Positions 9,718 through 23,699 of a stretch of DNA of 64,000 nucleotides are shown in pieces (within the stretch, counting starts at the first letter, position 1; each line of letters begins with the position of its first letter). Source of the DNA: Candidatus Eiseniibacteriota bacterium (GTDB taxonomy: Bacteria > Orphanbacterota > Orphanbacteria > Orphanbacterales > Orphanbacteraceae). The translations under genes and the position numbers were made by a program. The notes below the pieces were generated by a model. The model saw nothing but the letters and a program-made list of their open reading frames with translations. It was not told the origin of the DNA and ran no database searches. The DNA is taken from NCBI GenBank assembly GCA_029262235.1, contig JAJCZU010000002.1, positions 806,001 to 870,000 of the forward strand, given 5' to 3'.

Positions 9718-10553
9718 ACCCTGTCAAGATCGTGAAAGTCGGGGACGTCCGTTTCGGGAGCGAGGACCTCTGCCTGATCGCCGGTCCGTGCGTCATCGAA
9801 ACGGAAGAGATCGCACTCCGGACGGCGGAAGGAATTCGCGAGGCGACGGCGGCTCTCGGCATTCCCGTCATTTACAAGTCGTCGTATCGCAAGGACAATC
9901 GTTCGTCTCTCAAGCATTATGAAGGCCCCGGACTCGAAGAAGGGCTGCGCATTCTCGAGCGTGTACGGACCGACTTCGGGATGCCGATTCTGTCCGACAT
10001 CCATACGCCGCAGCAGGCGAAGGCCGCGGGCGATGTGCTCGACGTGATCCAGATTCCGGCTTACCTTTCGCAGCAGACGGAGCTCCTGCAGGCCGCGGCG
10101 GCGACGGGGAAACCCGTCAACGTAAAGAAGGGGCAGTTCATTGCCCCCGAGGACATGATGAACAGCGTCAGGAAACTGGAAGGAAGCGGCTGCGATCAGA
10201 TCCTGCTCACGGAGCGCGGCGCGTCATTCGGTTACCGGCAGCTCGTTGTCGACTTCCGGTCGCTTCCTGCTATGCGAAAGCACGGCTACCCGGTAATCTT
10301 CGACGCGACGCACGCGGTACGTATCTATGGCAAGCCGTCGGCCGATCCCGCGGGCGGTACGCCGGAACACATTCCGCTGCTGGCGCGCGCGGCGGTTGCC
10401 GCGGGGTGCGACGGACTCTTCATCGAAACGCACCCGAAACCGCCGTCCGCCCTTTGCGACGCGTCGAGTCAGTATCCGCTGGCGCAGCTCACGAACCTGC
10501 TCAGCGAGCTGAAGTCGATTCACGACGCCTGGCGTTCTCACGTAACGACATGA
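9714..10553 (+). CDS. kdsA: 3-deoxy-8-phosphooctulonate synthase (Kdo-8-P synthase)
   Basis: Condenses PEP with arabinose 5-phosphate, the first committed Kdo step. The 279-residue protein has IAGPCVIE, YKSSYRKDNRSS (family KASFDKANRSS), LSDIHTPQQA, VKKGQFIAPEDM, LLTERGASFGYR and DATHAV. The Cys in IAGPC, with His in DATHAV, Glu in FIETHP and Asp in LCDASS, is the metal-ligand set of the metal-dependent class (as in Aquifex), not the Asn-containing E. coli class. GTG 9714 follows GGAGGAA; its end overlaps kdsD (ATGA). Confidence 0.97.
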   Translation: MNPVKIVKVGDVRFGSEDLCLIAGPCVIETEEIALRTAEGIREATAALGIPVIYKSSYRKDNRSSLKHYEGPGLEEGLRILERVRTDFGMPILSDIHTPQQAKAAGDVLDVIQIPAYLSQQTELLQAAAATGKPVNVKKGQFIAPEDMMNSVRKLEGSGCDQILLTERGASFGYRQLVVDFRSLPAMRKHGYPVIFDATHAVRIYGKPSADPAGGTPEHIPLLARAAVAAGCDGLFIETHPKPPSALCDASSQYPLAQLTNLLSELKSIHDAWRSHVTT

Positions 10554-11572
10554 GTTTCTCGATGAAGTCACCCGACCGCGACCGCGCTCTCGCACGTGCC
10601 CGCGACATCCTCAGACAGGAGGCGCACGCGCTCTCCGCGCTTGCGGACGAACTGGGCGCCTCGTTTCTCGATGCGGCCGCGATCCTGCACCGCGCGATTG
10701 CCGAACCAGGAGAAGGCCGTCCCGGAAAGATCGTCGTGACGGGCGTCGGGAAATCCGGTCTGATCGGTCGCTCGCTCGCCGCCACGTTCAACGCCACCGG
10801 AGCCACGGCGTTTTTCCTTCACCCGGTCGAAGCCGTACACGGCGATCTCGGGATCATCGATCCGGGGGACGCCGTCATCCTGCTTTCCCGTTCGGGAACG
10901 AGCGAGGAACTGCGTCAACTGATCCCGTCCCTGCGCGCGGCCGGTGTCCCGCTCATCGCGATCACGGCACGCGACGATTCCGAACTGGCACGCTTTGCCG
11001 ACGTCTCGATTGCGATCGGAGACCGGCCCGAAGCGTGCAGCCTGAACCTGACTCCGACCACGAGCGCCACGGCAACCCTCGCCATCGGGCATGCTCTCGC
11101 CCTGACGCTTTTCGAATCGCGCGGCCTCAAGGAAGAAGACTTCGCGCGTTTCCATCCCGGCGGACTGCTGGGGAAGCGCCTTCTTTTGCGCGTGAAGGAC
11201 GTCATGCATACCGGGGAGGGCATTCCGCGTGTGACGCTCGACGCCGACATGCGAACGGTTTTGATCGAGATCATGGGCAAACGTCTCGGCGCGGCGGCGG
11301 TCGTGGAAGGGGAGAAGCTGGCGGGCATCATTACGGATGGCGATCTTAAACGGATCGTTCTTTCACATGACGACCTTTTCGAAGTCCCCGTGTCCGAAGT
11401 GATGACGGCCCGGCCCCAGACGATTGGCCCCGACGACCTCGTGGCCGATGCCTACCGCAGAATGCACGCGAACCCGGACGCCGTCATTACCTGCCTGCCC
11501 GTCGTCACCGGAGACCGTCTCACCGGGTTCCTCCACATGTACGACTGCCTCAAAAGCGGTGCCATCGGATAA
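10550..11572 (+). CDS. kdsD: arabinose-5-phosphate isomerase, SIS plus CBS domains
   Basis: Converts ribulose 5-phosphate to arabinose 5-phosphate, the KdsA substrate. The 340-residue protein has a SIS domain (about residues 40-190; VTGVGKSGLIGRSLAATFNATG, HPVEAVHGDLG, LLSRSGTSEEL), the LTPTTSATATLAIGHAL stretch, FARFHPGGLLGKRLL, and two CBS domains (about 215-335). ATG 10550 overlaps the kdsA stop; an open extension upstream is only the shadow of kdsA. The frame ends one base before the sigma-54-like promoter. Confidence 0.96.
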   Translation: MSFSMKSPDRDRALARARDILRQEAHALSALADELGASFLDAAAILHRAIAEPGEGRPGKIVVTGVGKSGLIGRSLAATFNATGATAFFLHPVEAVHGDLGIIDPGDAVILLSRSGTSEELRQLIPSLRAAGVPLIAITARDDSELARFADVSIAIGDRPEACSLNLTPTTSATATLAIGHALALTLFESRGLKEEDFARFHPGGLLGKRLLLRVKDVMHTGEGIPRVTLDADMRTVLIEIMGKRLGAAAVVEGEKLAGIITDGDLKRIVLSHDDLFEVPVSEVMTARPQTIGPDDLVADAYRRMHANPDAVITCLPVVTGDRLTGFLHMYDCLKSGAIG

Positions 11573-11589
11573 CTGGCACACGCTTTGCT
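11573..11589 (+). promoter_or_regulatory. candidate sigma-54 (-24/-12) promoter
   Basis: CTGGCACACGCTTTGCT matches TGGCACG-N4-TTGC except for A in place of the G after CAC. The GG (11575-11576) and GC (11587-11588) are exactly spaced. It starts at the first base after the kdsD stop and heads the operon that contains rpoN. Confidence 0.6.
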
Positions 11590-11617
11590 TGACAGAATTT
11601 CCCTTCCTGCATATGCT
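11589..11617 (+). promoter_or_regulatory. sigma-70 promoter for the lpxL-lptC-lptB-rpoN operon
   Basis: Consensus TTGACA at 11589-11594, 17-base spacer and TATGCT at 11612-11617. The -35 box abuts the -12 box of the sigma-54-like site, so the two polymerase forms would compete. Confidence 0.7.
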
Positions 11618-11664
11618 GAGCTTAACTGGTTGGTTGATAATGACTTCAGCGTCCAGGAGCACGC

Positions 11665-12573
11665 ATGCCCTTCGCCCAGCACCTTGCATCAGAAGCGATC
11701 CACGCCGCGATGGCGCTCGGAAAATCGCTCCCGCGCTCGGTCGCTCTGCCGCTGTTCAGCGCCGGAGGGGCTGCCGTACATCTTCTGGAGGGCCGAGGCC
11801 GCCGGATGGCGCAGACGAACCTCCGGCACGTGTTCGGCGCCGGAACGGACGCCCGGGCGCTCTCACGCCAGGTTTACCGCGATCTGGGCAGAAACGTCGT
11901 CGACCTGGCCCGTCTCGAAACGCACTCGGGCCCTTCTCTGACGGAAATGGTCTCCACCATGGGCTGGAATCGGCTTGAGCAGGCCCTCGCACGCGGCCGT
12001 GGCGTGATCGGCGTCACGGGTCATATCGGGAACTGGGAGCTCATGGCGTCGTATCTGGGCCAGCAGGGAGTCCCTCTGACCGTTCTCGCGAGCCGCCTTT
12101 TCAATCCGTCCCTCGACGACCGCCTCACGAAACTGCGCCGGCGCCACGGCGTCCGCACCCTGTATCGTTCGGAGCCCGGATGCCTGCGCAAGACATTGCG
12201 CATTCTGGATCGCGGCGAAATGCTCGGCATCGTCATGGATCTTCGGACCCGGGCCCGCACGCAGGGGATCGACTCGCTGTTTCTGGGCCACCCGATCCGG
12301 ACGGTGGTCGGGCCCGCTCGTCTTGCCGCGCGTTCCGGCGCATCGATCCTTCCCATGGCATGCTGGCGAACGCCGGGGGATCGTTTTCGACTCGAAATCG
12401 ACGCCCCGGTGCCGTGGGAAAACGAGCCGGGCACGAATCGCGAAATGAGCTGGAAGGAGACGACCGACCGTTGCATGGAATCCATCGAACGATACATACT
12501 TTCCGCGCCGACCCAGTGGGTCTGGATGCACGATCGCTGGGGCCTCGGCGTCTCGCAATCGGGCTCGGTGTGA
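11665..12573 (+). CDS. lysophospholipid/lipid A acyltransferase, LpxL (HtrB) family
   Basis: Probably adds a secondary acyl chain to the Kdo-lipid A precursor at the inner membrane. The 302-residue protein has an N-terminal hydrophobic stretch (about 14-40), MAQTNLRHVFG (family pattern of RRVxxNLxxaf), the catalytic HX4E motif GHIGNWE (about residues 118-124), MDLRTRARTQGIDSLFLG in place of the usual QdxRxxxGxxVpFFG, and the C-terminal [10 protein letters not shown] (family W.H.RWK). The acyl donor and exact symbol (lpxL, lpxM, lpxJ-like) cannot be set. The start overlaps no neighbour; the end overlaps lptC. Confidence 0.88.
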   Translation: MPFAQHLASEAIHAAMALGKSLPRSVALPLFSAGGAAVHLLEGRGRRMAQTNLRHVFGAGTDARALSRQVYRDLGRNVVDLARLETHSGPSLTEMVSTMGWNRLEQALARGRGVIGVTGHIGNWELMASYLGQQGVPLTVLASRLFNPSLDDRLTKLRRRHGVRTLYRSEPGCLRKTLRILDRGEMLGIVMDLRTRARTQGIDSLFLGHPIRTVVGPARLAARSGASILPMACWRTPGDRFRLEIDAPVPWENEPGTNREMSWKETTDRCMESIERYILSAPTQWVWMHDRWGLGVSQSGSV

Positions 12574-13076
12574 CGATCCTCTGCGCGGCTGCCTGCACCA
12601 AGGTCGAAGAGCCGCCCGCTCCCGCCGCGTCCGACCAGCACGCCGCCGTGCAGGAAACGCGTGTCAAGAAGTGGGTCGAGTACCGGGATGGCAAAGTCGT
12701 CTGGGAATTCCGCGGAGATCTTCTTCGCTACTACGAAAACCCGGAACGCGTCGAAGCCGACGGCTTGATCGTCGACTTTTACGAAAATGAGAAGTATTCG
12801 ACTACATTGACCGCGGATCACGGAACCATGCATCGCGGTTCGAGTGATATGCAGGCGACCGGCAATGTCATAATCGAGAACGTCAAAGGGACACGGGTTG
12901 AAACCGAGTCGATTCAATACCAAGATGAACAAGAGCGGATTTTTACGGACGACTTCGTGACAATCCTTCGCGGGAATAAAAAAATCACGGGTTACGGACT
13001 AGAGACGGATCCGAAACTGAACGAAACTCTGATCAAGCGGGACGTCGTCGCGAAGACGATCGATCGCTCCCGATAG
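12516..13076 (+). CDS. lptC: LPS export protein LptC, lipoprotein-like N-terminus
   Basis: Bridges the inner-membrane LptBFG complex to LptA and carries LPS across the periplasm. The LptC-type domain covers about residues 55-175: [45 protein letters not shown], a strong match to the LptC repeats. Start choice matters. GTG 12570 overlaps the previous stop but gives only [12 protein letters not shown] 12516, inside the acyltransferase gene, gives two Arg (RR) and a hydrophobic run ending AAAC at Cys27, a lipoprotein-like signal, and a 186-residue protein close to the E. coli length (191). I prefer 12516. No lptA follows. Confidence 0.8.
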
Positions 13077-13081
13077 GCGAT

Positions 13082-13816
13082 ATGGCGGAAGAGCGAAACG
13101 TTCTCAGAACGGACTCTCTGGCAAAGGCGTACCGCGGACGCGAGGTCGTGAAAGAAGTCACGATCGAAGTGCAGCGCGGCGAGGTCGTCGGACTGCTGGG
13201 ACCGAACGGCGCCGGCAAGACGACGACGTTCTACATGATCGTCGGCATGATCCAGCCGATGCGCGGCCGCATCTTTCTCGACGAGAAGGACGTGACCCGG
13301 GATCCGATGTTCCAGCGCGCGCGCATGGGGATCGGGTACCTGCCGCAGGAGAGCTCGATCTTCCGCAAGCTCACGGTCGAGGAAAACGTGCTCGCGGTGC
13401 TGGAAACGATGCCGCTCTCTTCGAAGGAGCGCAAAGAGCGAGCGGCGCGCCTTCTCGAAGAACTCGGGATCGCGGGCCTCGCCGGGTCGAAGGGATACAC
13501 GCTTTCGGGCGGAGAGCGCCGGCGCGCGGAAATCTGCCGGGCGCTGGCAACAGAGCCGTCGTTCCTGCTGCTCGACGAGCCGTTCGCGGGGATCGACCCG
13601 ATCGCGGTGCAGGACATTCAGGAAATTATCGCCGGGCTGCGGGAACGCGGACTTGGCGTGTTGATTACGGACCACAACGTCCGGGAAACGCTTTCGATTA
13701 CGAATCGGGCGTACATTATGTTCGAAGGGAAAGTGCTTCTTTCGGGAAGCGCGGAAGAGCTCGCGAACAACCCGGAAGCGCGCGAGATGTATCTCGGTGA
13801 AAAGTTCCGGCTCTAG
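13082..13816 (+). CDS. lptB: LPS export ABC transporter ATP-binding protein LptB
   Basis: Powers LPS extraction with LptF and LptG, encoded on the other strand at 21030-23473. The 244-residue protein has Walker [15 protein letters not shown]-loop [12 protein letters not shown], signature LSGGERRR, Walker [13 protein letters not shown], and the LptB-specific [10 protein letters not shown] and NRAYIM. It lies five bases after lptC and 35 before rpoN, the order seen in Proteobacteria (lptC-lptA-lptB-rpoN-hpf) but without lptA. Confidence 0.97.
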
Positions 13817-13851: not shown

Positions 13852-15324
13852 ATGGAAATGAAAGCGGGACTGCAGCTCAGGATGCTCCAGACGCAGAAGC
13901 TGGTGATGACACCACAGCTTCAGCAGGCGCTCCGCTTTCTTCAGATGCCGACGCTCGAGCTTCAGCAGGTTCTGAAACAGGAGATCATGACGAACCCGAT
14001 CCTCGAAGAGGTCGACGAGCTCACGGACAGTGAAGAGGAAACCGAGCAGGAGCGCGTCGAAACGGAAGAGGCGACACCCGACCGCAAGGACGGCGAGGAG
14101 CCGTCCGAAGGGGAGAAGCTCGACGACGCCCAGAGCGAGGTCGACTGGGACGAGTACTTCCATTCCCCGTCCGACTACAATTACAAGGTCGAGCAGGAAC
14201 ACCACGACGACACGTACGAGCGAGTTCTTTCGACCACCGTCCACCTGTCCGAGCATCTGCTCTCGCAGCTCCGGATGAGCGCGAAGAGCGAAGAGCTCCA
14301 GGTGATCGGCGAATTCCTGATCGGCAGCCTCGACGAGCGCGGATTCTTGACGATCACGTTCGACGAAGCGGCGGAATCGCTTCTCAAAGAACAGGGGGTT
14401 CGCTACGACAGCGACCAGATGGAAGAGGCGCTCTTTCTGATCCAGTCGTTCGAACCGGCCGGCGTCGGCGCGCGCGATCTGCGCGAGTGTCTGCTGCTCC
14501 AGTTCGAAGCCGAGTGCGACACCGAGAGCCTCGCGTACCAGATCATCCGTTTTCATTTCGACGACTTCGTCGAGAACAAGTACGCGGATATCGCAAGAAA
14601 ACTGAAGACCACTCCGAAGTCCATTCAGGAAGCTGCCAAAGAGATCGGGCATCTGAATCCCCGGCCCGGGCTTCTCTATACGGACGAAGATCCGCGTTAC
14701 ATCACGCCGGATCTCATCGTCGACCGCGTGGACGAGGAATTCGTCGTCTATCTGAACGACCACAACGTGCCGCGCCTCCGGATCTCGCGCGCGTACGAAA
14801 AGTACATGACGAACGGCACGAATACGGATCCCGAGACGAAGGAATACATCAAAGGGAAACTGAACGCCGCGGCGCAGCTCATCAACACGATCGAGCGCCG
14901 GCGCCGCACGATGGTGAAGGTCATGAAGGCCATCGTCGAGAACCAGATCGACTTCTTCGAACACGGCATCCGCTTCCTGAAGCCGATGACGCTGCAGCAG
15001 GTCGCGGACCAGATCGGCATGCACGAATCGACCGTGAGTCGCGTGACGTCCGCCAAGTACGTGCAGACCCCGCGTGGCGTGTTCGAACTGAAGTTCTTCT
15101 TCTCCTCGAGCATTCGTTCGGACTCGGGAGAGGACGTCTCGGCCAAAAGGGTCAAGGACCGCGTCAACGAACTCGTCGAAAACGAGGACAAGAAACGCCC
15201 TCTCAGCGACCAAAAGATTGTGGAGCAATTGAAGGGCGAAGGCCTTATCATTGCCCGGAGAACAGTTGCCAAATACCGTGAGCAGATGGGCATTCTGTCC
15301 GCTCGCTACCGTAAGAAGTTTTAA
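13852..15324 (+). CDS. rpoN: RNA polymerase sigma-54 factor
   Basis: Directs polymerase to -24/-12 promoters and needs an AAA+ activator to open them. The 490-residue protein has the Gln/Leu-rich region I (LQLRMLQTQKLVMTPQLQQALRFLQMP), an acidic region II (about residues 55-110), the core-binding domain, the helix-turn-helix QVADQIGMHESTVSRV, and the RpoN box ARRTVAKYREQMGI at the C-terminus. The start has AGAGGAA upstream. Sites matching its promoter consensus are found upstream of sprA and of its own operon. Confidence 0.98.
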   Translation: MEMKAGLQLRMLQTQKLVMTPQLQQALRFLQMPTLELQQVLKQEIMTNPILEEVDELTDSEEETEQERVETEEATPDRKDGEEPSEGEKLDDAQSEVDWDEYFHSPSDYNYKVEQEHHDDTYERVLSTTVHLSEHLLSQLRMSAKSEELQVIGEFLIGSLDERGFLTITFDEAAESLLKEQGVRYDSDQMEEALFLIQSFEPAGVGARDLRECLLLQFEAECDTESLAYQIIRFHFDDFVENKYADIARKLKTTPKSIQEAAKEIGHLNPRPGLLYTDEDPRYITPDLIVDRVDEEFVVYLNDHNVPRLRISRAYEKYMTNGTNTDPETKEYIKGKLNAAAQLINTIERRRRTMVKVMKAIVENQIDFFEHGIRFLKPMTLQQVADQIGMHESTVSRVTSAKYVQTPRGVFELKFFFSSSIRSDSGEDVSAKRVKDRVNELVENEDKKRPLSDQKIVEQLKGEGLIIARRTVAKYREQMGILSARYRKKF

Positions 15325-15357: not shown

Positions 15358-15714
15358 ATGCAGATCTCGATCACAGCCCGTCATTTCGATCTCACCCCGG
15401 GACTGAAGGAACACACGCAAGACCGGTTGGAAAGGATGACGAAATACGGTGTCCCTCTGCTCGAGGCGCATGCCGTATTGATGGTCGAGAAGTACCGCCA
15501 CAACGCCGAAGTGACACTGCACGGCAAAGGCTTTCATATTGCGGGGCACGCCGAGTCGGAAGACATGTATCAGTCGGTCGACCAGGCATGCCAGAAACTC
15601 GAAGAACAGATTCGTCGCCACAAGGACAAGATTCAGGACAAGCACAAGGGCGAGAAACTGAAAGAAATGGCAGGGGAGAGCGATACGGATGATGATGACG
15701 AAGATGAGGACTGA
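15358..15714 (+). CDS. hpf: ribosome hibernation promoting factor, short form
   Basis: Binds the 30S A and P sites in slow growth and promotes inactive 100S ribosomes. The 118-residue protein has the S30Ae fold: ITARHFDLTPGLKEHTQDRLERMTKYG, VEKYRHNAEVTLHGKG, ESEDMYQSVDQACQKLEEQIRRHKDKI. It lacks the long-form dimerisation domain and ends in a run of 11 Asp/Glu within the last 15 residues. Start has AAGGAG seven bases upstream. Sits in the common rpoN-hpf order. Confidence 0.95.
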   Translation: MQISITARHFDLTPGLKEHTQDRLERMTKYGVPLLEAHAVLMVEKYRHNAEVTLHGKGFHIAGHAESEDMYQSVDQACQKLEEQIRRHKDKIQDKHKGEKLKEMAGESDTDDDDEDED

Positions 15715-15737: not shown

Positions 15738-16703
15738 GTGCCTGAGCTTTCCGTAGCCCGGCTCGTCGAAGAGAAGGGCGAATCCTTTCAGCTCGAAGTC
15801 CTGACGAAGTCGTGGCGGCACGGTCAGCCGATCACGGTAAGCGATGTGAATCGTCCGGGCCTTGCGCTCGCCGGTTTCAGCGAGAACTTCCTCTCCGAGA
15901 GGATTCAGATTCTGGGTGAGACGGAGATGCTCTTTCTGGAGACGCTCTCCGAACCGGAGCGTCATCGCGCGATCGATCGACTTCTTGCGCTCGACATCCC
16001 GTGCCTGATCATTGCCAAGGATCTCGAATACGACGCGTACCTGATGAACGAGGCCGACCGTCTCGGAGTCCCGGTGCTCAGGACACCGCAGTCGACCACG
16101 CCGTTCATTCACGGCCTGACCGAGTACCTCGATCAGTACTTTGCTCCGCGTACATCGATCCACGGTACCCTCGTCGACGTTTACGGGGTGGGGTTGCTCA
16201 TCACGGGAAGCGCGGGAATCGGCAAGAGCGAACTGGCGCTGGACCTGATCGAGCGCGGCCATCGGCTCGTCGCGGACGATCTGATCATCGTGACGCGTCG
16301 GCACAATCTGCTCTACGGAGAGCCGCCAGACCGTCTCAAGTATCTGATGGAGATCCGGGGCATCGGCATCGTCGACGTAAGACGCCTGTTCGGTATCCGG
16401 GCCGTCGGAAAGAACAAGAGAATCGACGTGGAGCTCAGCCTTCGCGAATGGAAAGCGGACGTTCGCTACGACCGCAAGCATATGCAGGAAAGAGTGGCGT
16501 CTCTGGTCGGGCTCGAGTTCCCGGTGGTTACGATTCCGCTCATTCCCGGGAAGAACGTGACGGTCCTTGCTGAGGTCGTTGCGATGAACCATCAGTTGAA
16601 AGTGCAGGGAATCCGGACCGAGCAGGAGCTCAACGACCGGGTTCTCCGCGAAAATCTCGAGTCGGCTCACCCCGACGACAACGCCGGAGACAGGAACGCA
16701 TGA
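15738..16703 (+). CDS. hprK: HPr kinase/phosphorylase
   Basis: Phosphorylates and dephosphorylates HPr on its regulatory serine (residue 46 class). The 321-residue protein has an N-terminal domain (1-130), the P-loop GSAGIGKSELALDL (about residues 153-166), the Asp pair VADD, and the signature EIRGIGIVDVRRLFG (about 205-219). GTG 15738 is taken because PELSVARLVEEKGE fits the family start. No clear ribosome site is seen; translation may couple to hpf. ATG of ptsH overlaps the stop (four bases). Confidence 0.94.
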   Translation: MPELSVARLVEEKGESFQLEVLTKSWRHGQPITVSDVNRPGLALAGFSENFLSERIQILGETEMLFLETLSEPERHRAIDRLLALDIPCLIIAKDLEYDAYLMNEADRLGVPVLRTPQSTTPFIHGLTEYLDQYFAPRTSIHGTLVDVYGVGLLITGSAGIGKSELALDLIERGHRLVADDLIIVTRRHNLLYGEPPDRLKYLMEIRGIGIVDVRRLFGIRAVGKNKRIDVELSLREWKADVRYDRKHMQERVASLVGLEFPVVTIPLIPGKNVTVLAEVVAMNHQLKVQGIRTEQELNDRVLRENLESAHPDDNAGDRNA

Positions 16704-16975
16704 TGGAAAAGACGGTGACCATCGTGAACGACAAGGGACTGCATATCCGGCCCGCCCAGAAGATCGCCGAACTCTGCAACTCGTTCTCTTCGGATATCTT
16801 CATCGAGAACGGGGAGATCAAGGCGAACTCCAAGAGCCTGCTTGGTCTCATCGGTCTCAACGCTCCCAAAGGCACCGTCATGCGCATCGTCACGAACGGC
16901 CCGGACGAACGAGAGGCTCTCGAAGCCATCGTCGGTTTGATCCAGGGAGGGTTCGGGGGCGAGTTCGATGATTAG
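16700..16975 (+). CDS. ptsH: phosphocarrier protein HPr
   Basis: Takes phosphate from Enzyme I on a histidine. The 91-residue protein has GLHIRPAQ (His at residue 15; Ile replaces the usual Ala) and NSKSLLGLIGLNAPKGT with the regulatory Ser that HprK modifies. The serine and the neighbouring hprK mean that the kinase switch is present. It overlaps hprK by four bases and precedes ptsI by three. Confidence 0.95.
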   Translation: MMEKTVTIVNDKGLHIRPAQKIAELCNSFSSDIFIENGEIKANSKSLLGLIGLNAPKGTVMRIVTNGPDEREALEAIVGLIQGGFGGEFDD

Positions 16976-16978
16976 TTC

Positions 16979-18730
16979 ATGAAAGACGGGAAGATCGCCC
17001 TCAAAGGTATCCCGGTCTCCCCGGGTGTCGCATTCGGGGACGTTTTTGTATGGAATCCCGAAGAAGTCAGAGTCGACGACAGCCTGCTCGAATCGCACGA
17101 GATCCCCGCGGAAGAGAGTCGGTTTCACGAAGCGCTGCAACAGACCGAAGTCGAAATCGACCGCATCCGAACACGGTACCGGTCCGTCATCGGCGAAGAA
17201 CTGATCCGCATATTCGACGCGCAGGTCATGATTCTGCATGACCCTGTCGTTAAAGAAGGCGTGATCAACAGGATCCGCCAGGACAATCAGCGCGCCGACG
17301 CGGCATTTCAGGCCATCATCAGTGAAGCCATCGTCAACCTCTCGAAAGTGGAAAACGACTACCTGCGCGAGCGCGTGGAAGATCTGCGCGACGTGCAGCG
17401 CCGCGTGCTCCGCCAGCTGAACGGCGGCAGCGCGTTTCCCCTCTCTCGCATTCAGCACAACGTGATTCTGGTCGCGGAAGATCTTACGCCGTCCGAAACC
17501 GTGCAGATTCCACGGGAACATGTGATGGGTTTCATTACGAGCGGGGGCGGCGCGACGTCGCACACGGCGATCATGGCGCGCTCGCTCCAGATCCCGGCCG
17601 TTGTCGGCGTGAAAGATCTCCTGGCGAAGATCGCCGAGGGCGATCGTGTCGTGCTCGACGGGGGAGAGGGCACGGTCGTTGTCGGTCCGAGCCGCGCGTA
17701 TCTAGATACCGCCCGGAAGAGGCAGGCCCGCTATGTCGAGTTTCGCGAAGAGAGACGCAAATTCACAGAGCGACCGTCCGCGCTCCGGGACGGCACGACG
17801 ATCCGGCTCGAAGGAAACATCGAGCTGCCCGAAGACGTGGCAGCCGCACTCCATCAGAGAGTCGAAGGGATCGGTCTCTTTCGCACCGAGTTCCTCTACT
17901 TCCGCGAGGCCGTGTTCGCAGACGAAGACAGACAGTCCGCGCTCTATAAAAAGGTACTGAAACGGGTGGCGCCCGAACATGTCGTCTTTCGCACTCTGGA
18001 TGTCGGCGGCGACAAGCTGATGGACCCGGCGATCGATTCACTCGAGCGCAATCCGATGCTCGGCTGGCGCGGCATCCGGATCTCACTCGGTTTCAAAAAA
18101 CTGTTTCGCACGCAGCTTCGAGCGCTTCTGCGCGCCGCGAGCGCGGGTAATCTCTCGATTCTTTTTCCGATGATCACGACCATGGAAGAAGTGCGCGAGG
18201 CCAAACGCCTCGTCGCCGAAGCCCGCGAAGAACTGCGGGTGCTGGGGCACGATGTGCGCCAGGACATCGCGCTCGGGGTCATGATCGAAACCCCCGCGGC
18301 GGCTTATCTCGCCCCCCATCTCGCGCGGGAGGTCGATTTTCTCTCGATCGGTACGAACGACCTGATCCAGTACACGCTCGCCGTCGACCGTGACAACCGG
18401 AAAGTGGCCTCGCTCTTTGATCCGTACCACCCCTCTGTGTTATGCATGATTCGCGATGTCGTGAAGGCTGGCAAAGCGGAGGGGACGCCCGTTACGGTAT
18501 GCGGCGAAATGGCCGGAGAGTCGCTGACCGCACTGCTTCTCGTAGGGCTCGGAGTGCGCACGCTTTCACTCCACCCGTACGCGGTGCCCGACCTGAAACA
18601 GGCGTTCTCGCTCTATGATGAGCAGGAACTTCGCGAGCTGGCAGAGAAATCATGTTCCATGGATTCCGGCCCCGCCGTGCGCAGCCTCTGGGAAGGCGTG
18701 CACGAAGAGAGAGAGAAAAGAGCGAAATGA
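16979..18730 (+). CDS. ptsI: phosphoenolpyruvate-protein phosphotransferase (Enzyme I)
   Basis: Autophosphorylates from PEP and passes phosphate to HPr. The 583-residue protein has the swivelling His domain with GGATSHTAIMARSLQIPAVVG (active His about residue 190), the PEP-binding barrel with LFRTEFLYF, RTLDVGGDK, GTNDLIQYTLAVDRDN and the catalytic Cys in VCGEMAG. Length matches the family (575). No EII components are in the window. The stop overlaps the next ATG (ATGA). Confidence 0.97.
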   Translation: MKDGKIALKGIPVSPGVAFGDVFVWNPEEVRVDDSLLESHEIPAEESRFHEALQQTEVEIDRIRTRYRSVIGEELIRIFDAQVMILHDPVVKEGVINRIRQDNQRADAAFQAIISEAIVNLSKVENDYLRERVEDLRDVQRRVLRQLNGGSAFPLSRIQHNVILVAEDLTPSETVQIPREHVMGFITSGGGATSHTAIMARSLQIPAVVGVKDLLAKIAEGDRVVLDGGEGTVVVGPSRAYLDTARKRQARYVEFREERRKFTERPSALRDGTTIRLEGNIELPEDVAAALHQRVEGIGLFRTEFLYFREAVFADEDRQSALYKKVLKRVAPEHVVFRTLDVGGDKLMDPAIDSLERNPMLGWRGIRISLGFKKLFRTQLRALLRAASAGNLSILFPMITTMEEVREAKRLVAEAREELRVLGHDVRQDIALGVMIETPAAAYLAPHLAREVDFLSIGTNDLIQYTLAVDRDNRKVASLFDPYHPSVLCMIRDVVKAGKAEGTPVTVCGEMAGESLTALLLVGLGVRTLSLHPYAVPDLKQAFSLYDEQELRELAEKSCSMDSGPAVRSLWEGVHEEREKRAK

Positions 18731-23682: not shown

Positions 23683-23699
23683 TTGGCACGTCCCTTGCC
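23683..23699 (+). promoter_or_regulatory. sigma-54 (-24/-12) promoter upstream of sprA
   Basis: TTGGCACGTCCCTTGCC contains TGGCACG (23684-23690), four bases and TTGC (23695-23698): a complete match to the sigma-54 core consensus TGGCACG-N4-TTGC. The expected start of transcription is near 23710, about 110 bases before the sprA ATG. No competing sigma-70 promoter was seen on this strand. Confidence 0.8.

Follow-up and report, generated by a model that had tools for sequence, protein, structure and literature searches.

How does a bacterium set the level of sigma-54, a factor that can silently occupy promoters? The answer is poorly known outside a few groups, and the head of an rpoN operon in the window analysed here (the whole stretch of DNA, 64,000 nucleotides) raises the question directly, as a sigma-54 site and a sigma-70 promoter are joined there without a gap. 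The sigma-54 half is an exact TGGCAC-N5-TTGC on the + strand (TGGCACACGCTTTGC, 11574-11588) that matches the sigma-54 consensus at 10/10 positions, with GG at 11575-76, GC at 11587-88 and ten bases in between. It starts one base downstream of the kdsD stop codon (TAA, 11570-11572) and is abutted by TTGACA (11589-11594), then 17 bases and TATGCT (11612-11617), 47 bases before the ATG of an lpxL-like gene at 11665. This second half has all the parts of a sigma-70 promoter, a TTGACA, a spacer in the range of 16-18 bases and a TATAAT-like box, and is the best of 5 promoter-like matches in 12 kb (score 10/12; shuffles give 2.0 matches). No base separates the -12 element of the sigma-54 site from the -35 box of the sigma-70 promoter, which by geometry is the overlap of a competing pair. 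Transcription by sigma-54 holoenzyme starts about 12 bases after the GC and that by sigma-70 holoenzyme about 7 bases after the -10 box, which gives the two predicted starts among the following features.

11574..11588, + strand: sigma-54 -24/-12 element TGGCAC-N5-TTGC, exact match, conserved in two phyla
11589..11594, + strand: sigma-70 -35 box TTGACA, abutting the -12 element; zero offset in 7/7 and 42/44 (see below)
11612..11617, + strand: sigma-70 -10 box TATGCT, spacer 17; -10-like score compared with shuffles (see below)
11600, + strand: predicted sigma-54 start, 12 bases past the C of the GC
11624, + strand: predicted sigma-70 start, about 7 bases past the -10 box

The genes on either side were identified by their domain and family matches.

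10550..11572, + strand: kdsD, arabinose-5-phosphate isomerase (SIS and CBS domains; PF01380, PF00571), the upstream neighbour; KpsF/GutQ family TIGR00393 over cutoff
11665..12573, + strand: lpxL-like lipid A acyltransferase (PF03279), assigned at family level only, being below NCBIfam cutoffs among the matches listed
12570..13076, + strand: lptC (PF06835; TIGR04409 over cutoff)
13082..13816, + strand: lptB (PF00005; TIGR04406 over cutoff)
13852..15324, + strand: rpoN, sigma-54, with AID, CBD and DBD (PF00309, PF04963, PF04552; TIGR02395 over cutoff)
15358..15714, + strand: hpf, ribosome hibernation factor (PF02482, TIGR00741), 33 bases behind rpoN
15738..16703, + strand: hprK, HPr kinase/phosphorylase (PF07475, PF02603, TIGR00679)
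16700..16975, + strand: hpr (PF00381), overlapping hprK by 4 bases
16979..18730, + strand: ptsI, enzyme I (PF02896, PF05524, PF00391)

From lpxL through lptC, lptB, rpoN, hpf, hprK and hpr to ptsI this is one unbroken run of + strand genes in which the gaps measure -4 to 35 bases. The rpoN product carries the RpoN box ARRTVAKYRE and all three domains, so the sigma-54 gene is apparently intact. The sequence-only reading had put a sigma-54 site one base past the kdsD stop, touching the -35 box of a TTGACA-N17-TATGCT promoter, and had named lpxL, lptC, lptB and rpoN as the genes behind it; the boxes are exactly there (11574-11617), and the domain matches and the continuous + strand genes confirm the order. 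In the stretch from 12570 to 13816 lptB directly follows lptC, and lptA is absent from the gene run.

Could two such boxes meet by accident? Counting sites is of little help. Loose matches to the sigma-54 pattern, with up to two mismatches, are uninformative because the 41 in the window equal the shuffle mean (43). The window holds only two exact TGGCAC-N5-TTGC, and the genome 19, which is no excess, as the control pattern read backwards occurs 25 times. A first-order chance model over 4.47 Mb expects 3.9 exact sites, and only 0.0004 complete composites. Of the 19 exact sites, 18 fall between the genes predicted by a simple codon-usage ORF caller, and the one before the rpoN operon is the only one followed by TTGACA. 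The evidence for the element is its placement, not its count.

The relatives within the phylum bear this out. Each of the seven genomes sampled, which were all those returned for the phylum, has a single TGGCAY-N5-TTGCTTGACA, and the backwards control is found in none. The composite lies behind kdsD in 7/7 and ahead of lpxL in 6/7, the contig of the seventh (G001) ending there; the offset between the sigma-54 element and the -35 box is zero in all seven, and the distance from the kdsD stop to the site is 1-30 bases in the six family genomes measured. That the composite is a housekeeping promoter motif used generally in the lineage can be rejected, since it is present only once per genome. Bare TTGCTTGACA is rare in six of the seven genomes, with 2-5 copies, and has 34 in G005, the latter number suggesting a repeat or a repeated promoter motif.

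A scan for the composite plus a -10 box in the genome_contigs collection (described as covering 84,980 species) returned 29 stretches, seven of them at the kdsD/lpt-rpoN place, with further operon genes visible downstream in five of the seven. The other 22 are not beside the lpt-rpoN operon and may be chance matches or other promoters; a match in Eisenbacteria (L071/L079) was rejected, no gene of the pyrG-to-ptsI query set being found there. Three of the seven placed stretches, L083 (titled Krumholzibacteriota), L064 and L070, lie outside the family and belong to one phylum of 80 genomes. RpoN was found in 78 of these 80, and 75 of the 78 upstream stretches were fetched, leaving out G116 (contig edge) and, uncounted as already found by the pattern, G041 and G042 (the genomes of L083 and L064); 15 of the 75 were set aside for too little upstream sequence, so that 60 regions were informative. 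A scored search found TGGCAY-N5-NTGC upstream of the operon in 44 of the 60 (once with C for the first T). In 42 of the 44 the abutting hexamer matches TTGACA at four positions at least, and none does so at any other offset from -3 to +3. The reverse strand of the same regions gave 0/60 elements, and block shuffles gave means of 0.4 elements and 0.008 composites against the 44/60 found.

What has been kept in these regions is the boxes and their spacing: TGC-TTGA is nearly invariant, and the spacers are unconserved, effectively randomised. The GG and GC are invariant in 51/51 selected elements by selection, the sigma-54 motif columns having been part of it, and the -12 C is invariant too; the abutting -35 (TTGAC) and -10 columns had no part in the selection. 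At a spacing of 16-18 the -10-like score is above all 2000 shuffles in each of three groups. The -10 box is weak in one clade of the second phylum, which makes use by sigma-70 less sure in that part. Conservation thus gives good support to the tandem or overlapping sigma-54 and sigma-70 promoter that the sequence-only reading placed before the rpoN operon; retention of both boxes and of GG and GC in relatives, named beforehand as the check, is strongly borne out (7/7 and 44/60). Being conserved in relatives, the finding is stronger than the letters of the window alone could make it.

Sixteen of the 60 informative regions have no element (L149, L154, L158, L163, L176, L177, L179, L180, L182, L186, L189, L191, L192, L196, L198 and L201). 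The region searched is shorter than 130 bases in nine of them, several have a short kdsD-lpxL gap, and the miss in L163 (G043) is a contig artefact, because L070, from the same genome, has the element after kdsD. Otherwise the misses indicate that the element can be lost or moved. On an LptB tree, whose deep branches are weakly supported and whose backbone carries no claim here, carriers are present in all the main clades of the second phylum and misses are scattered tips or small clades, a distribution that reads as ancestral presence followed by losses. Where lpxL was not detected (L083, L064, L145, L159, L160 and L161) the element stands before lptC; as it is kept there, it belongs to lptC-lptB-rpoN, and an essential tie to lpxL is rejected. 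As for the proposed link of sigma-54 to lipid A acylation and LPS export, the conserved target, lptC-lptB-rpoN, agrees with the export part, but the stress on acylation is too narrow, lpxL being undetected in several carriers.

Beyond the two phyla the picture changes. RpoN was found in 239 of 290 diverse genomes, and 60 stretches, mostly from the top of this list of 239, were fetched; dropping 11 without an RpoN match left 49 loci. A strict sigma-54 site is present on the forward strand at nine of these and on the reverse strand at four, and the relaxed composite at five on either strand. The composite is consequently not universal, since forward it is no commoner than in reverse, and a broad, ancient feature of all rpoN operons is unsupported by this comparison, which has no clear excess. 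One distant locus, L213 (G227, matched by place to none of the 80 genomes), has the full composite between kdsD and lpxL. Two others have looser arrangements, TGGCATATTTTTTGC after kdsD (L257:3710-3724) with TTGACT-N17-TAGCAT about nine bases further down (spacing by eye), and TGGCATGTAATTTGC one base before TTTACA-N17-TAAAAT (L270:3489-3503). Pairs of sigma-54 and sigma-70 boxes in tandem before rpoN may thus have evolved on more than one occasion, the zero offset being typical of the two phyla.

The remaining exact sites in the genome indicate what the 10-base motif stands for. Of 15 genes scanned downstream of exact sites nine have a Pfam match, to a type IV pilin-like protein, a flagellar rod/hook protein, a sigma-70-family factor, a beta-barrel/PKD protein (OMP), LytB, DUF2400, Ysc84, a beta-helix protein and a TPR protein. 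Matches to the activator family PF00158 number 28 in the genome, in itself weak evidence because the family also matches in all 14 control genomes; four exact sites have one within about 1.3 kb, and those four activators carry GSFTGA or GSFTDA. As nearly all the sites are intergenic, some of the targets typical of sigma-54 and four activators close by, the set resembles a sigma-54 regulon, and the motif most likely marks real sigma-54 promoters in this genome. The second exact site of the window (23684-23698, + strand, L005) is intergenic, about 140 bases before a long + strand ORF without a Pfam match, and is likely an ordinary sigma-54 promoter. Another (L018, G000:C6:374650) lies about 50 bases before the gene of a sigma-70-family factor with regions 2, 3 and 4 and adjoins a GSFTDA activator, an arrangement that is likely a sigma cascade.

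We regard it as almost certain that the rpoN element is a real composite promoter, and as very probable that sigma-54 is what binds its upstream box. From the boxes, their fixed geometry, their conservation and the gene order we infer binding, mutual exclusion, starts and the sign of regulation as follows. The sigma-70 promoter (11589-11617) would keep up a basal level of transcription through lpxL-lptC-lptB-rpoN into the PTS genes that follow, and E-sigma54 would bind the -24/-12 element (11574-11588). As the last base of this element adjoins the first base of the -35 box, the geometry predicts that both holoenzymes cannot share the site. Sigma-54 holoenzyme waits as a closed complex that makes no start without an activator, and its footprint is of a size that would here cover both the -35 and the -10 box of the sigma-70 promoter. 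When sigma-54 accumulates, the E-sigma54 closed complex would occlude the sigma-70 promoter and lower rpoN expression, a negative feedback; an activator ATPase, if acting, would make the complex start near 11600 and bring the operon under sigma-54 control.

Autoregulation of rpoN is the natural inference from such a composite and is well supported as a prediction. The sequence-only reading had allowed for either a positive or a competing effect. The invariant zero offset favours competition over a positive loop, and together with randomised spacers it is what selection for mutual exclusion would be expected to leave. Our preferred reading, which we consider probable, is therefore a composite autoregulatory promoter with homeostatic self-limitation of sigma-54 and optional activator-driven firing; that occlusion or competition is the main effect seems on balance the better supposition. 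As at least two phyla retain the fused site and -35 box at one and the same spacing, sigma-54 probably limits or tunes its own production. More tentatively, the -12 element and the -35 box could be one indivisible ancestral cis-element, a sigma-factor toggle coupling the sigma-54 level with LPS export, that predates the split of at least two and probably three phyla (the third represented by G227/L213), the zero offset itself having been selected as it would make occupancy mutually exclusive and set the ratio of sigma-54 to sigma-70 holoenzyme.

The strongest rival to this self-limitation, though we think it unlikely, is positive autoregulation, in which an activator ATPase would drive E-sigma54 from this site and raise expression of rpoN and of LPS export when the envelope or the nutrient supply is under stress, the sigma-70 promoter would only prime the loop and the overlap would be incidental. 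The full consensus site with GC at -12, the 28 PF00158 matches (weak alone) and the GSFTGA/GSFTDA loops of the four activators examined are consistent with it, but an incidental overlap should let the offset drift, and it is zero in 7/7 and 42/44. Nor was an upstream activator site found: kdsD has no excess of synonymous conservation in its codons (alignments read by eye), the site is only 1-30 bases behind the kdsD stop in the six family genomes, and among the matches listed for the window no activator gene adjoins the operon. Since activators can also work from sites in coding sequence, the null result in kdsD, the closeness of the site to it and the fixed offset are compatible with a positive loop as well. 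Sigma-54-dependent transcription of rpoN has also been predicted or reported elsewhere (PMC12316311, as far as its accessible text goes).

It is improbable that the upstream box is read by another factor, or is an upstream element of the sigma-70 promoter, its likeness to a -24/-12 element being coincidental. Upstream box and abutting -35 box do behave as one conserved block; against this stand the 10/10 consensus match, the GG-N10-GC phase, the position ahead of the very operon that encodes sigma-54, and the recurrence of the 10-base motif at 17 further intergenic sites, some near typical sigma-54 targets or activators. Chance juxtaposition of two consensus-like strings, to which the chance-level loose matches and an exact count below the backwards control might lend colour, is not credible and already refuted by conservation, with 0.0004 expected per genome against one at the orthologous place in each of seven, and 44/60 against a shuffle mean of 0.4 in the second phylum.

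The ingredients of the self-limiting composite are known from other systems, and we compare it with these as far as the accessible parts of the sources allow. In E. coli, sigma-54 sites that overlap a sigma-70 promoter can repress it through competition for binding, as shown in vitro, with a C at -12 in all the repressive sites seen (PMC4551910), and mapping data are in line with competition between sigma factors at intergenic sites (PMC4591121). Like the E. coli class I/II sites (argT, chaC, mdfA, patA; PMC4551910), the present element has its -24/-12 inside the sigma-70 footprint and keeps the -12 C; unlike them, it heads not a scattered single gene but sigma-54's own operon, and its offset is exactly zero and kept through two phyla. 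Autoregulation of rpoN is negative in R. leguminosarum (PMC3538637), documented in G. sulfurreducens and Dokdonia, and predicted in Bacilli, Clostridia, Verrucomicrobiia, Planctomycetia and alpha-, beta- and gamma-Proteobacteria (PMC12316311). There too a sigma-54 site is thought to control rpoN, but the accessible text of both papers presents none of these cases as a sigma-54 site fused to a -35 box; the lineages studied here did not turn up in that text, and 'Gemmatimonad' has 0 occurrences in that of PMC12316311. The conserved neighbourhood kdsCD-lptABC-rpoN-hpf-PTS, and the idea of sigma-54 as a factor of the cell exterior, were described by Francke et al. 2011 (PMC3162934). The genes are similar and the LPS link is the same, but the accessible part of that work treats the neighbourhood, not the promoter ('autoregulat' and 'own promoter' have 0 occurrences), and the order differs, as here hprK, hpr and ptsI follow and the run lacks lptA. 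Open-licence PubMed Central yielded no description of a sigma-54 site fused to a -35 box at rpoN, and older subscription papers may differ. Both rpoN autoregulation and sigma-54/sigma-70 competition are known; their fixed, phylum-wide fusion at rpoN itself appears, within that literature, to be new. A sigma-54 site joined to the -35 box ahead of the factor's own operon, and retained in more than one phylum, offers a candidate self-limitation circuit that is directly testable. It also brings cis-regulatory evidence to the proposed connection of sigma-54 with LPS export, which the accessible text of PMC3162934 describes, for the rpoN locus itself, as gene neighbourhood, and gives uncultured lineages an example of a recognisable sigma-54 site in a conserved place.

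Some further features flank the element. For the leader, a scan of 11300-11900 gave no match to a known RNA element in Rfam, even with E-values of up to 1 allowed. Upstream, L136 and L200 share direct repeats of the type GTTCCGYATT, placed some tens of bases ahead of the sigma-54 box, a conservation that is weak evidence because the two genomes are close. Downstream, a second conserved block around TTTTTCAACATGTTACGTGAGATGA, seen by eye, lies about 60-100 bases from the site in L140, L142 and L144 and is weaker in L145, L160 and L137; placed downstream of the predicted sigma-70 start, it is perhaps an operator or a leader element.
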